DNA of 64,000 bases from Methanocaldococcus sp. GTDB taxonomy: Archaea; AGJL01; Methanococci; Methanococcales; Methanocaldococcaceae. The DNA is taken from the NCBI RefSeq assembly GCF_024490875.1, contig NZ_JACCLX010000041.1, forward strand, positions 1 to 64,000. The letters are read 5' to 3'. Of this stretch, positions 59,711 through 64,000 are shown piece after piece (the first letter of the stretch is position 1; the number at the start of each line of letters is the position of its first letter). The notes beneath the pieces are model-generated. The model was given only the letters and a program-made list of their open reading frames with translations. It was not told where the DNA came from and ran no database searches. A program made the translations under genes and the position numbers.

Positions 59711-59800
59711 GCAGGGGTAGCCAAGCCAGGACTACGGCGCTGGACTTGAGATCCAGTGGGGCTTTGCCCCGCCTGGGTTCAAATCCCAGCCCCTGCGCCA
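59711..59800 (+). tRNA. tRNA-Ser (TGA), probable integration site
   Basis: A 90-nt class II tRNA with encoded CCA. The acceptor GCAGGGG pairs with CCCCTGC and discriminator is G, as in serine tRNAs. Anticodon stem CTGGA/TCCAG encloses CTTGAGA (anticodon TGA). The long variable arm is GTGGGGCTTTGCCCCGC-like, and the T arm is CTGGG-TTCAAAT-CCCAG. The gene is complete, and a tyrosine integrase gene starts the flanking element just downstream, so this is probably the attachment site. Confidence 0.95.
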
Positions 59801-59866
59801 TACTCTTTTATCATTGTTATATTCCAAATTTAGACAAATTGTGGCTATTTACACCTACTTTTTACA

Positions 59867-59939: not shown

Positions 59940-60917
59940 TTAAAGAATCTTTTTTATCGTTTTTAAAAGCTTTTGAGTTCTCTCTTTTGAGTGTGAGTAA
60001 AATAAAGTGGTATCTAATGTTTTATGACCTAAATATTCCTTAACTATATCAATCGGAATTCCTTTTTCTAATAAATCCACACATCTGCCATGTCTTAAGC
60101 TATGCAATGTTATTCTTCTGCCTTCTGGAATTTTACCTTCTTTTTTAAGCTCTTTAACAGCTTTATTAAATACTTTAAGTATTGTATTTCTACTTAGCTT
60201 ACCTCCTTTCTGGCTCTGGAATAGATAGTCATCTGGTGACTGTTTAGGATTAAATTGAATATACCACTTCAACGCCTCCAATGTAGCATCTGAGCATACA
60301 ACGACTCTTTCCTCATGTGTTTTGGTATTTGTGATTCTAAATGTTCCATTATCTAAATTACAATCCTTATATTTTAAGTTCAAAATCTCTGAAATCCTAC
60401 ATCCAGTGTCCCAAAGCACCCTAATTATTAACGCATTCCTTATACTCATTCTACTATTTGATTCAAGCATCTTCTCCAAAATTAAGTTGAGTATGTTGCT
60501 ATCAACAGCATCGTAATGCTTAACTTCAATTTTAGAAAATCTTTTCCTTTCTTTACTTTCTTCTATAAAATCACTAATAACATGTTGCATCCTCATAATT
60601 CTATAAAACACTTTTAACAAAAGATAGTATTTTCTCTGTGTGTTTTTAGAGACTTTCCTCTCTTTCTCCAAATAGTTAAAGAACTTAACAAAATCATGAG
60701 TCTCCAATTTGTCTGGACTTTTACCCAACCTATTATAACAAAAGTCAAGAAATACTTTTAGCCTCGTTATATCTGATTTTATTGTCTCCTCCTTTATGCC
60801 ATCAAATTCTCTCTCTTCTTTAAATTTCTGTATCCATGGTTTCATCTCGTCTGTTTCTTCTATGTCATCCGGCCTCTTGATTAATAAAAGATTTTTTATA
60901 TTAAGTCCGCTCCCCAT
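59940..60917 (-). CDS. Tyrosine recombinase (integrase)
   Basis: A 325-aa XerC/D-like integrase. An N-terminal SAM-like core-binding domain (about 25-125) is followed by the catalytic domain with Arg174 in GCRISEIL, the beta-hairpin lysine in TKTHEERVV, H272xxR275 in HSLRHGR, His in YLGHKTLDTT and the nucleophile Tyr307 in LFYSHS. The gene is not split by integration, unlike SSV-type elements. GGTGAATG selects the ATG at 60917 over 60923. It overlaps the 82-aa gene upstream by 17 bases. Confidence 0.93.
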   Translation of the reverse strand: MGSGLNIKNLLLIKRPDDIEETDEMKPWIQKFKEEREFDGIKEETIKSDITRLKVFLDFCYNRLGKSPDKLETHDFVKFFNYLEKERKVSKNTQRKYYLLLKVFYRIMRMQHVISDFIEESKERKRFSKIEVKHYDAVDSNILNLILEKMLESNSRMSIRNALIIRVLWDTGCRISEILNLKYKDCNLDNGTFRITNTKTHEERVVVCSDATLEALKWYIQFNPKQSPDDYLFQSQKGGKLSRNTILKVFNKAVKELKKEGKIPEGRRITLHSLRHGRCVDLLEKGIPIDIVKEYLGHKTLDTTLFYSHSKERTQKLLKTIKKIL

Positions 60918-61149
60918 CTTCATTCACCAAAATAACATAATTTAAATATAAGTTGGTTGCTTTACCAAATCTTTGGTAAATTTTCCTTTCCTCCTCCGTT
61001 AAAATTATGGTTCTCTTACATCTCTTCCTGGCTTCAACAACCTTTTTTAATTTCTCAGGGTCTATCTGCTTTAAATCTTCAAGTTTATGCAGATGATACC
61101 TAAGTTGCCTACTGTCTATATTTTTATAGAGATAAAAAGTAACTTTCAT
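60901..61149 (-). CDS. Small hypothetical protein of the element
   Basis: An 82-aa basic protein with no recognised family. RQLRYHLHKLEDLKQIDPEKLKKVVEARKRCKRTI suggests a short helical nucleic-acid-binding or regulatory protein, which is a guess. Its end overlaps the integrase start, so translation is likely coupled. The frame opens at 61182, but GGTGAGAGTT precedes the ATG at 61149. Confidence 0.68.
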   Translation of the reverse strand: MKVTFYLYKNIDSRQLRYHLHKLEDLKQIDPEKLKKVVEARKRCKRTIILTEEERKIYQRFGKATNLYLNYVILVNEDGERT

Positions 61150-61171
61150 AACTCTCACCAAAAAGAAAAAA

Positions 61172-61711
61172 TTATTCTTCAATTAAACCACAATCGACTA
61201 ATATTTTGTATAGCTCGTATGTTCTCTTAATGTCAAGCTGTAAGTGATGCAATATTTTATCCAGAGCTTCTTTATCATCTTCTTTCTCATATCTTTCCCA
61301 AAGTTGTGGTATTTCACATCCATCAACATCATCATTCTGTATATCAATGTTAAAGAACTCACAGTATGCTTTTAAACTCCTACCTCTAATATATCCCCCT
61401 CCATTCAGAATTTGCATCAAATCCTTTCTTCCTTCGTATTTTTCGAAGTATTTTATCCTAATCCTGTAATATAACGACCTAAGTTTGATAAATTGCCAAT
61501 CAAATTTGTTTATATTAAATCCTATCAACTGCTCTATACCTTCTTCAGATACTTTCCCCCAAAATTTAGTTAGTAATTCTTTCTCATCTTTCGATGTCAA
61601 TAACTGAATATCTAACTTGTCCTCTCTAATAACACCCAAGCCTATCGCTACAATCCTATTCTTCAAGGGGTCAAGCCCCGTTGTTTCAATGTCTATAATA
61701 GCAACTGTCAT
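61172..61711 (-). CDS. DnaQ-like 3'-5' exonuclease (DEDDh)
   Basis: A 179-aa exonuclease-fold protein. Exo I is IIDIETTGLDPLKNRIVAIG (Asp7, Glu9), Exo II is LIGFNINKFDWQFIK with Asp near 72, and Exo III is HHLQLDIKRTYEL near 160, giving the DEDDh set. It could proofread or process DNA for replication, recombination or host interference by the element. GGAGGGG precedes the ATG. It lies between the HTH-ATPase gene and the 82-aa gene. Confidence 0.87.
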   Translation of the reverse strand: MTVAIIDIETTGLDPLKNRIVAIGLGVIREDKLDIQLLTSKDEKELLTKFWGKVSEEGIEQLIGFNINKFDWQFIKLRSLYYRIRIKYFEKYEGRKDLMQILNGGGYIRGRSLKAYCEFFNIDIQNDDVDGCEIPQLWERYEKEDDKEALDKILHHLQLDIKRTYELYKILVDCGLIEE

Positions 61712-61733: not shown

Positions 61734-62984
61734 TTAAGGAATTACCATCTTATTAGCAGGGATGAAATAACTACTTCCAACAGTAGGAATGCTGAAAACT
61801 CCCTCCCCACTTTCTACATTTCGAGTAGGATATGATACATTATTCTTTGAGGAATCCTCTTTAACCAAAGTGAAAGTTTTAAGAATGTATTTCATGAACC
61901 TATAGGCATCATCCACAGCCACATCTGGATTTTTATTCAATGAATAACTAAATTTCAAAATCTCAAATGCATGGTGTAAAAGCCCATTATCCATAGATAC
62001 AGGTTGCCAAAGCTCGTTTATTCCCTTTAATTTTCTATGATTTACAGTTAAGAAGTCATTTTTTAATACTGCACTATACTCTCTCTCAATCCTCCACTGC
62101 CTTGCTGAAAGCTGTTGGTCCATGTTTCCTTCTCTATCTACATGGTAGAGATTGGCAATTTCTTTCTCTTTTAAAATCTCTAAATACGTCCTACAAGCTC
62201 CAACATCAATTGTAAAGAACTTTAAGTGGTTGAGTTTTTCAATAAATTTATCTTTTATGTCTTTAGGAATTGTTTTTATTATCTTAAAGTCATCTAAATC
62301 TAAAGTAAAGAATTTAAAGTCATTATCAAACTCTGAAGGCATTTTTATTCTTAAAGGAAGGAATCTAAATAAAAACTCACTTGGGGCAATTCTTGACTTT
62401 GGCACAACATCATACCTATCAAATATCTTAGTGTCTTCAAACCTCCAATCGTGCAAATATTGTTGCTCTATAATTTTGATATTGTCTTTAACCATGTCTA
62501 TGTATTGATACATGTCTTTTCTATGCATATCTACCAGTATTTTTGGATTATTTTCTAAGTCAGGATAAACTGCCTTTATGCATGTTGTTTTTCCTACATA
62601 CTGAGGACCAAAGATTATTAACCTTAAATTTGTGTATTTAGAAATTAATAATGCCGTTATTGGAATACTATATGATGTAGAGTGCCAATTATACTCCTTC
62701 AAAACCTTTTTAATATATGAGTTAATACCTGTTATTGTGTCAATATCTTTCGGGATTTGAATGTGAGGGATTTCGTTTTCATTACTGCTATGTGGCTTGG
62801 CAAGGGCGTAGTATTTGGTCCTACCTTCTTGCTCCACTACCTTAATTAAGCCATTGTCTTGGAGATACTGTAGTTTTTTAGAAATTAGTCCGGGATTTAT
62901 ATTAAAGGCTTCTGCAATTTCTTTATTTGTGGCTTTGCCTACTTGGGATAAGTATAATAAGATTCTTTCACTAACTTCGTCCAT
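61734..62984 (-). CDS. HTH plus P-loop ATPase of the element, unknown function
   Basis: A 416-aa protein. Residues about 1-65 are an ArsR/MarR-like winged helix (ILLYLSQVGKATNKEIAEAFNINPGLISKKLQYLQDNGL). A P-loop GPQYVGKTTC lies near 125-134, followed by LVDMHRKD and KFFTLDLDDFKII. The C-terminal third has no known family. It is the largest gene of the operon. It may be a replication or partition protein or a regulator that uses ATP; I do not recognise a described family. GGTGATATT precedes the ATG. Confidence 0.8.
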   Translation of the reverse strand: MDEVSERILLYLSQVGKATNKEIAEAFNINPGLISKKLQYLQDNGLIKVVEQEGRTKYYALAKPHSSNENEIPHIQIPKDIDTITGINSYIKKVLKEYNWHSTSYSIPITALLISKYTNLRLIIFGPQYVGKTTCIKAVYPDLENNPKILVDMHRKDMYQYIDMVKDNIKIIEQQYLHDWRFEDTKIFDRYDVVPKSRIAPSEFLFRFLPLRIKMPSEFDNDFKFFTLDLDDFKIIKTIPKDIKDKFIEKLNHLKFFTIDVGACRTYLEILKEKEIANLYHVDREGNMDQQLSARQWRIEREYSAVLKNDFLTVNHRKLKGINELWQPVSMDNGLLHHAFEILKFSYSLNKNPDVAVDDAYRFMKYILKTFTLVKEDSSKNNVSYPTRNVESGEGVFSIPTVGSSYFIPANKMVIP

Positions 62985-63040: not shown

Positions 63041-63316
63041 TTAAGCCCCAACTTTAAGTGGCTCAGGAACTTGTCCATTTACTACCTTCTGTCTTAAATC
63101 TATCTCAATAATTTTATCCTCACTCGTGAGTTTCTCTAATATCTCCATACAAAGTTTCTCTGCTCTTTCTTTATCATCAGTTTGTATTACTGCCGAATAC
63201 TCATCTTTGCCAATCTCATACACTATTTCCACATCATAATTAACTCTTATAGCCACAATCTTCTCAATATTTATTGCACGTGTATAATGTTCTTCTTTAA
63301 TAACTAAAAACCTCAT
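63041..63316 (-). CDS. Small element protein, unknown
   Basis: A 91-aa protein that starts MRFLVIKEEHYTRAINIEKIVAIRV and continues with alternating hydrophobic strands and one helix (DKERAEKLCMEILEKL), like small beta-rich phage proteins (PH-like or YopX-like folds). No firm family. Its ATG overlaps the stop of the AbrB-like gene (ATGA), and AGGTGAAATT lies inside that gene, so the two are coupled. Confidence 0.72.
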   Translation of the reverse strand: MRFLVIKEEHYTRAINIEKIVAIRVNYDVEIVYEIGKDEYSAVIQTDDKERAEKLCMEILEKLTSEDKIIEIDLRQKVVNGQVPEPLKVGA

Positions 63317-63483
63317 AATTTCACCTCAAAATTGTTTTTTAAATTTTTTCTATCTTTTTCATTACAATAAATAATAATTGTTGCTCTTTTTCCAATGAAC
63401 CTTTTAGGGACATAGACATGGGCGGTATTCCCATACGGTTTTATGGGCTTGTCATGAATTACTACTGCTTCTGAATATTCCAT
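63313..63483 (-). CDS. AbrB-like / DUF2080 family small protein
   Basis: A 56-aa protein with KPYGNTAHVYVPKRFIGKRATIII, the pattern of archaeal 'transposon-encoded' DUF2080 proteins and AbrB-like DNA-binding folds. It is the first gene of the element operon and a candidate autoregulator. The frame opens at 63525, but GGTGGAA selects the ATG at 63483. The start is overlapped by ATTGCCAAT operator-like sites. Confidence 0.8.
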   Translation of the reverse strand: MEYSEAVVIHDKPIKPYGNTAHVYVPKRFIGKRATIIIYCNEKDRKNLKNNFEVKL

Positions 63484-63493
63484 AGTTCCACCT

Positions 63494-63620
63494 ATTGCCA
63501 ATGGTGGCATTATTGCCAATATCAAAAATGGCGTTTCTTATATATATACTTTTCTATTATTGACAATATTGGCATAAATGACAATAACAAATATTATGCC
63601 AAATAAACATATTGTCAATA
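63494..63620. promoter_or_regulatory. Divergent promoter and operator array of the element
   Basis: Between the two divergent genes are ATTGCCAAT direct repeats (63494-63502 and 63512-63520), a near-palindrome TGGCATTATTGCCA (63505-63518), and a large inverted repeat. In that repeat TATTGACAATAT-TGGCATAA (63558-63577) is mirrored by TTATGCCA (63594-63601) and ATATTGTCAATA (63609-63620), with a 7-bp spacer only in the right arm. A TATA run at about 63538-63549 serves the leftward operon. The likely binders are the winged-helix protein or the AbrB-like protein. Confidence 0.65.
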
Positions 63621-63639
63621 AAAAACGGAAGGAATTAGT

Positions 63640-64000
63640 ATGCTTAACGAAATTAAATTATTAAAAATATTATCAAAAAAAAATAATTATTTAGTATTGA
63701 AAACATTATTTAAAAATAATGCTTTATATTTTAGAGAATTAAAAAAAGAATTAAAAATGGATGGTAAAACAATATATCGTGCATTAGAAGAATTAGTTAA
63801 TGCTGGATTAGTTAAAAAGGAAATAGAAGAGCCAGAGAAACGAACATCAAGAGTATATTACTCACTTACAGAGTTTGGAAAGAAAGTAGTAAAAATATAT
63901 GATTACATAGAGCAATTAGAGAAAGAATTAGAAGATAAAAATGCAATAATCATTAATGGTAATGTTGGAGATAATAATATTATTGCTAACAAAATTCAGA
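63640..64000 (+). CDS. Winged-helix transcriptional regulator (3' end beyond window)
   Basis: The frame runs open to the window end, at least 120 codons. Translation from the ATG gives a winged helix: LLKILSKKNNYLVLKTLF, YFRELKKELKMDGKTIYRALEELVNAGLVKK, and a wing with RTSRVYYSLTEFGKKVV, then a helix that may mediate dimers. It looks like the HxlR/MarR/ArsR-type regulators. GGAAGGAATT precedes the ATG. It is divergent from the element operon and probably controls both promoters. Confidence 0.85.
   Translation, partial: MLNEIKLLKILSKKNNYLVLKTLFKNNALYFRELKKELKMDGKTIYRALEELVNAGLVKKEIEEPEKRTSRVYYSLTEFGKKVVKIYDYIEQLEKELEDKNAIIINGNVGDNNIIANKIQ

Follow-up and report, generated by a model that had tools for sequence, protein, structure and literature searches.

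Eight short dyads form an array in the 156-bp gap that separates a DUF2080 (AbrB-like) gene from a divergent winged-helix (WH) gene, at the right-hand end of the window (the whole 64,000-nucleotide stretch of Methanocaldococcus sp. DNA that was analyzed). The array is probably, at a likelihood that we would put near 0.7, the operator of a WH repressor switch acting both on an integrase operon and on the WH gene itself. These genes belong to a 25.3-kb element that is integrated in tRNA-Ser, begins at 59745, and carries 57-bp att repeats. The contig extends beyond the window, and 3.5 kb inside the element (contig 74600-78118; L013:15600-19118) reads N. From the AbrB-like gene, a run of leftward genes reaches the integrase with intergene gaps of -4, 56, 22, 22, and -23 bp, and the run from AbrB-like gene to integrase is presumably co-transcribed. 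The features on which the argument depends are as follows, from left to right.

59745 to 59801, plus strand: attL, 57 bp, 3' end of tRNA-Ser(TGA) (gene 59711-59800), with an exact copy, attR, at contig 85038-85094
59940 to 60923, minus strand: tyrosine integrase, last gene of the leftward run
60901 to 61182, minus strand: DUF2540 protein, in the leftward run
61172 to 61711, minus strand: 3'-5' exonuclease-like protein (RNase_H_2), in the leftward run
61734 to 62984, minus strand: wHTH-ATPase, 416 aa, with an N-terminal winged helix and a weak AAA match
63041 to 63316, minus strand: gene for a 91-aa protein, in the leftward run
63313 to 63483, minus strand: DUF2080 (AbrB-like) gene, first of the leftward run, start set at ATG 63483 with GGTGG upstream
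63496 to 63518, no strand: putative left operator cluster, TGCCA at 63496, TGGCA at 63505, and TGCCA at 63514, 9-bp step
63541 to 63548, minus strand: predicted TATA box of the leftward operon, from sequence and promoter scoring across homologs, preceded by a BRE-like AGAAAAG
63561 to 63583, no strand: putative right operator cluster, TGACA at 63561, TGGCA at 63570, and TGACA at 63579, 9-bp step, upstream of the WH gene
63597 to 63601, no strand: TGCCA box standing alone, +18 relative to the final box of the right cluster and close to where the WH promoter is presumed
63613 to 63617, no strand: TGTCA box, also alone, contained in ATTGTCAAT and +16 relative to the preceding box
63640 to 64000, plus strand: WH gene (HxlR-type), presumed repressor, ATG 63640, 128 aa, ending past the window at contig 64026

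The initial annotation had singled out this gap for an array of ATTGCCAAT/TTGGCAT motifs, and these motifs are indeed present, with ATTGCCAAT at 63494 and 63512, ATTGACAAT at 63559, ATTGTCAAT at 63611, and TTGNCAT half-motifs at 63569, 63578, and 63596. The true unit of the array is the 5-bp dyad TGNCA on a 9-bp step. Its eight copies start at 63496, 63505, and 63514, at 63561, 63570, and 63579, and at 63597 and 63613; the first six make up two 23-bp clusters of three boxes each with an exact 9-bp step, one on either side of the predicted leftward BRE/TATA, and the last two boxes then follow singly. ATTGNCAAT equals its reverse complement at every position but the center base, so any two copies can be read as both direct and inverted repeats. 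A large TATTGACAATAT...ATATTGTCAATA inverted repeat had also been described, and it is exact over 13 bp (TTATTGACAATAT at 63557-63569 and ATATTGTCAATAA at 63609-63621), but since the boxes are self-complementary and repeated, it is a by-product of the palindromic boxes and not a separate feature. The further proposal that this repeat is asymmetric, with 7 extra bases in its right arm and halves that are bound separately, is not supported: no such bases were found, both arms are 13 bp, and each box is palindromic in its own right. The claim of 7 bases may have referred to the last box, which lies 16 bp, not 9, from its neighbor.

Both the number of boxes and their spacing go beyond what base composition produces in shuffled sequence. 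The eight TGNCA dyads in 156 bp compare with a maximum of six in 5,000 dinucleotide-preserving shuffles, and the count of boxes sharing one step was reached by none of the 5,000 (0/5000). Across the 1,468,100-bp genome, the form TGNCA-N4-TGNCA-N4-TGNCA occurs exactly twice, both times in this array, while the two-box form is found at 15 places, including four in the 88 bp spanned by the two clusters, compared with six occurrences of a reversed control pattern. Because there is no further triple box in the genome, the array is probably one local control point and not part of a regulon.

The position of the boxes relative to the predicted promoter is consistent with such a control point. The leftward start site is expected near 63519, as predicted from the sequence, and the left cluster overlaps this predicted start site and the leader of the leftward operon; the right cluster, upstream of the leftward BRE, precedes the WH gene. 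The array had been said to cover both divergent promoters, and it does cover the predicted leftward promoter and the region before the WH gene, but a promoter for the WH gene is not clearly recognizable. The longest AbrB-like frame (63313-63525) starts at TTG 63525, inside the array, and ATG 63483, with GGTGG upstream, appears to be the likelier start.

Both proteins encoded beside the array belong to DNA-binding families. WH matches Pfam HxlR at 35.0 bits against a curated cutoff of 20.8, and its predicted structure (pLDDT 81), modeled from the window's own 120 residues as a single sequence, resembles HxlR, YodB, and QsrR among solved structures, with TM scores of 0.73/0.80 against Bacillus subtilis HxlR. 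By profile and modeled fold, WH is an HxlR-type winged helix, and members of the HxlR family bind short dyads as dimers. The AbrB-like protein matches Pfam DUF2080 at 31.8 bits against a cutoff of 21.5, and the AbrB-like family is of the swapped-hairpin DNA-binding type. Among close WH homologs, the wing and the C-terminal part are conserved and residues from about 20 to 55 vary; this stretch includes the recognition helix but is wider than it, and the idea that only the recognition helix is variable was rejected. We also observed that the last 26 residues of WH (63946 to contig 64026), after the C-terminal helix, form a tail conserved in the closest WH subfamily (INGNVGDNNIIAN...NSKI.FKK), which perhaps serves oligomerization.

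The same arrangement is found in related genomes. WH homologs occur in 20 of 36 genomes of the class, and 33 regions with a divergent AbrB-like/WH pair, the window included, were collected, with gene starts in the relatives set by rule. In the window and in each of seven long stretches (8/8 elements), the AbrB-like gene leads a same-strand run that ends in a homologous integrase, and the WH gene is divergent from it. The middle genes of the run vary among these eight elements, and two of the runs hold one larger gap (301 and 201 bp). Searches with WH and the ATPase against phage and plasmid records gave no match, and searches with WH, two relatives, and a five-sequence alignment against genome and viral contig collections confirmed no related locus.

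A set of 27 non-redundant homologous gaps contains 45 inverted repeats in which 4-bp arms enclose a 4-bp spacer, where 14.6 would be expected (z 8.2), and the enrichment holds without the window (z 7.4). Spacers of 2, 6, 8, and 10 are enriched as well, as expected from nested palindromes. By comparison, 32 control divergent gaps, taken from the window and other genomes of the class and enlarged from a first set of 10 intergenic regions, contain 12 such repeats against 13.1 expected (z -0.3), and a general repetition score also separates homologous from control gaps (p 8.7e-8). A clear N4 dyad was not seen in several of the homologous gaps. The dyads cluster around the predicted leftward TATA, with 26 of 34 falling 20-46 bp away from it on one side or the other against 13.6 expected; the p-value is optimistic because the band was picked after the data had been seen.

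Conservation of half-sites in related elements had been named as a check on the array; when it was run, the geometry proved to be strongly kept but the sequence did not. Individual gaps have palindromes of their own, such as GTTAGTAATAAC (L041 and L043), TCCAATATTGGA (L056), GTGATTCATCAC (L027), and TTCGAACA (L032), and the sequence common to the window and its four closest relatives is a TATTGG core only. Putative operator sequences differ between elements while their geometry is conserved. We also considered whether operator words follow the recognition helix, which was not supported beyond near-identical pairs: a partial Mantel comparison of shared 6-mers gave a partial r of 0.09 (p 0.04) over all pairs, and in this crude test the co-variation was gone without the near-identical pairs (r -0.05). 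Two regions, L060 and L061 (G018 and G020), carry three tandem DUF2080 (AbrB-like) genes instead of one beside the divergent WH gene. In L031 and L033 (G004 and G007), two near-identical WH genes with no detected AbrB-like neighbor face lipoprotein-like genes, and repeated TTAGCAAAAATGTTAA-like motifs lie upstream of the WH genes.

A genetic switch between maintenance and excision of the element had been suggested, and the layout, namely the position of the array and the run to the integrase in all eight elements, backs it in the form of repressed maintenance versus integrase expression. This is the best reading because the array spans the predicted leftward promoter and the run behind that promoter ends in the integrase. 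We infer that WH is the ligand and that it both represses the operon and regulates itself. WH, made rightward, would bind the 9-bp-spaced TGNCA boxes, probably as dimers. At the left cluster it would cover the start site and leader and stop transcription of the AbrB-like-to-integrase operon, and through the right cluster and both single boxes it would govern its own promoter. Upon a drop in WH occupancy, the AbrB-like protein, the 91-aa protein, the wHTH-ATPase, the exonuclease, the DUF2540 protein, and the integrase would be expressed, and the element would then replicate, excise, or both. The AbrB-like protein may be a second ligand that opposes WH in a Cro-like manner.

Reasoning by analogy, the best reading of the WH switch is that it works like the lysogeny repressors of phiCh1 and phiH and like F55 of SSV1. 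A repressor-operator system has been described for phiCh1 (PMC8371274; PMC6471424), and phiCh1 Rep and phiH RepR, both from haloarchaeal viruses, resemble the arrangement here in being element-encoded repressors with operators at the promoters of active-state genes. The host group is a different one, however, the run that would be controlled here starts with an AbrB-like gene and ends with an integrase, and the likeness is one of layout. F55 is a small repressor whose 11-nt binding site recurs several times in early promoters and in the promoter of F55 itself; it keeps the carrier state and downregulates the SSV1 integrase operon (PMC9608457; PMC8371274). It has been described as unique to SSV1 and its sites are found at several separate promoters, whereas here a single array with a 9-bp step serves one divergent pair. 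The lambda cI/Cro right operator combines divergent small DNA-binding proteins with three-box operators at facing promoters and sets a repressor against an early operon. The differences from lambda are that the promoters here are archaeal BRE/TATA promoters, that the folds are winged helix and AbrB-like, and that the integrase lies at the far end of the operon.

Alternatively, the AbrB-like (DUF2080) protein could be the main ligand, with the array as its autoregulatory site and WH acting elsewhere. Its gene adjoins the array and is kept together with it in the relatives collected, the family is a DNA-binding one, and the DUF2080 match is above cutoff, but L031 and L033, in which no AbrB-like neighbor was detected, still carry TTAGCAAAAATGTTAA-like inverted motifs (judged by eye), which points to WH; we regard this alternative as unlikely. 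The array could also be a partition (centromere-like) site at which WH nucleates on the 23-bp sites and then spreads, as AspA does on pNOB8. AspA, too, has a winged helix, its target being a 23-bp palindrome that precedes its own gene (PMC5120986), and the WH family gives a weak profile match to it (E 0.003). Here, by contrast, the geometry brackets a promoter and faces an integrase operon, the spacing between the dyads and the leftward TATA stays fixed among homologs in an operator-like way, and no ParA or ParB match was found among the element proteins scanned (part of the frames, with 3.5 kb that reads N), so that a partition role seems very improbable.

We give similarly little credence to replication-origin iterons or arm-type integrase sites. 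The short spaced repeats do lie near a putative replication gene and the integrase gene, but 3.7 kb separates the array from attL, the array brackets a promoter, and a better candidate for an origin is found elsewhere. At contig 64300-64600 (L013:5300-5600), to the right of the WH gene, a very AT-rich stretch is bordered by TCATACCG-like repeats that occur in both orientations; it sits in a 574-bp non-coding region just past the window and is a candidate replication origin. AT-rich DNA is rich in spurious inverted repeats (63 pairs within 1 kb), but functionless chance repetition is ruled out for practical purposes by the shuffles, the genome-wide counts, and the control intergenic regions.

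The module that we read as a WH repressor switch is also carried by MspFS406-22_IP1, a member of the pT26-2 family that, like the element here, uses a tRNA-Ser site, with an att of 54 bp versus 57 here (PMC6972569). The two elements share a homologous integrase, DUF2540, the wHTH-ATPase, the AbrB-like gene, and WH, and the att coordinates of our G007 relative agree with those of MspFS406-22_IP1 (PMC6972569). The family has seven conserved core genes, and those of its members that occur in Methanococcales use tRNA-Ser as their integration site and have long att repeats (PMC6972569), a site trait that the window's element has (tRNA-Ser, 57-bp att repeat). Membership of the window's element, suggested by the tRNA-Ser site and the FS406-22 relative, was nevertheless rejected on the core genes: none of those common to MspFS406-22_IP1 and pMEFER01 were found in it, and the acylphosphatase-like gene alone matches pMEFER01, whereas the FS406-22 element matches the core strongly (both comparisons being made with 3.5 kb of the window's element that reads N). 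Because a true pT26-2 member carries the module and the window's element is without the core genes, the module resides on at least two kinds of element. Another candidate, pURB500 of Methanococcus maripaludis, was rejected: it has DUF2540 and a homologous integrase, but an AbrB-like/WH pair could not be made out clearly. A tentative extension, possible though short of probable, is that the AbrB-like/WH switch and the integrase form an exchangeable regulatory cassette on otherwise unrelated methanococcal elements, in which operators would have diverged under one geometry and every element would be an immunity group to itself, much as lambdoid phages are.

How integration and excision are controlled is established for only a few archaeal elements; those that one review discusses are SSV1 and phiCh1 (PMC8371274). 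We found no published description of the module and no mention of DUF2540 in the literature searched, which lay mostly outside subscription journals, and the pT26-2 paper makes no mention of AbrB, operator, or repressor (PMC6972569). The module is widespread in Methanococcales, and its putative operator is compact and clearly defined, with many sequence variants and one geometry; the specificity of repressors, immunity to superinfection, and the exchange of modules among archaeal mobile elements are therefore directly testable.

Two further genes lie in the part of the element beyond the window. Besides the integrase beside attL, the element has a second tyrosine recombinase gene (contig 80122-80886; L014:1122-1886), and near attR it encodes a small TFIIB-type zinc ribbon protein (contig 84250-84636; L014:5250-5636) that is possibly a transcription factor of the element.
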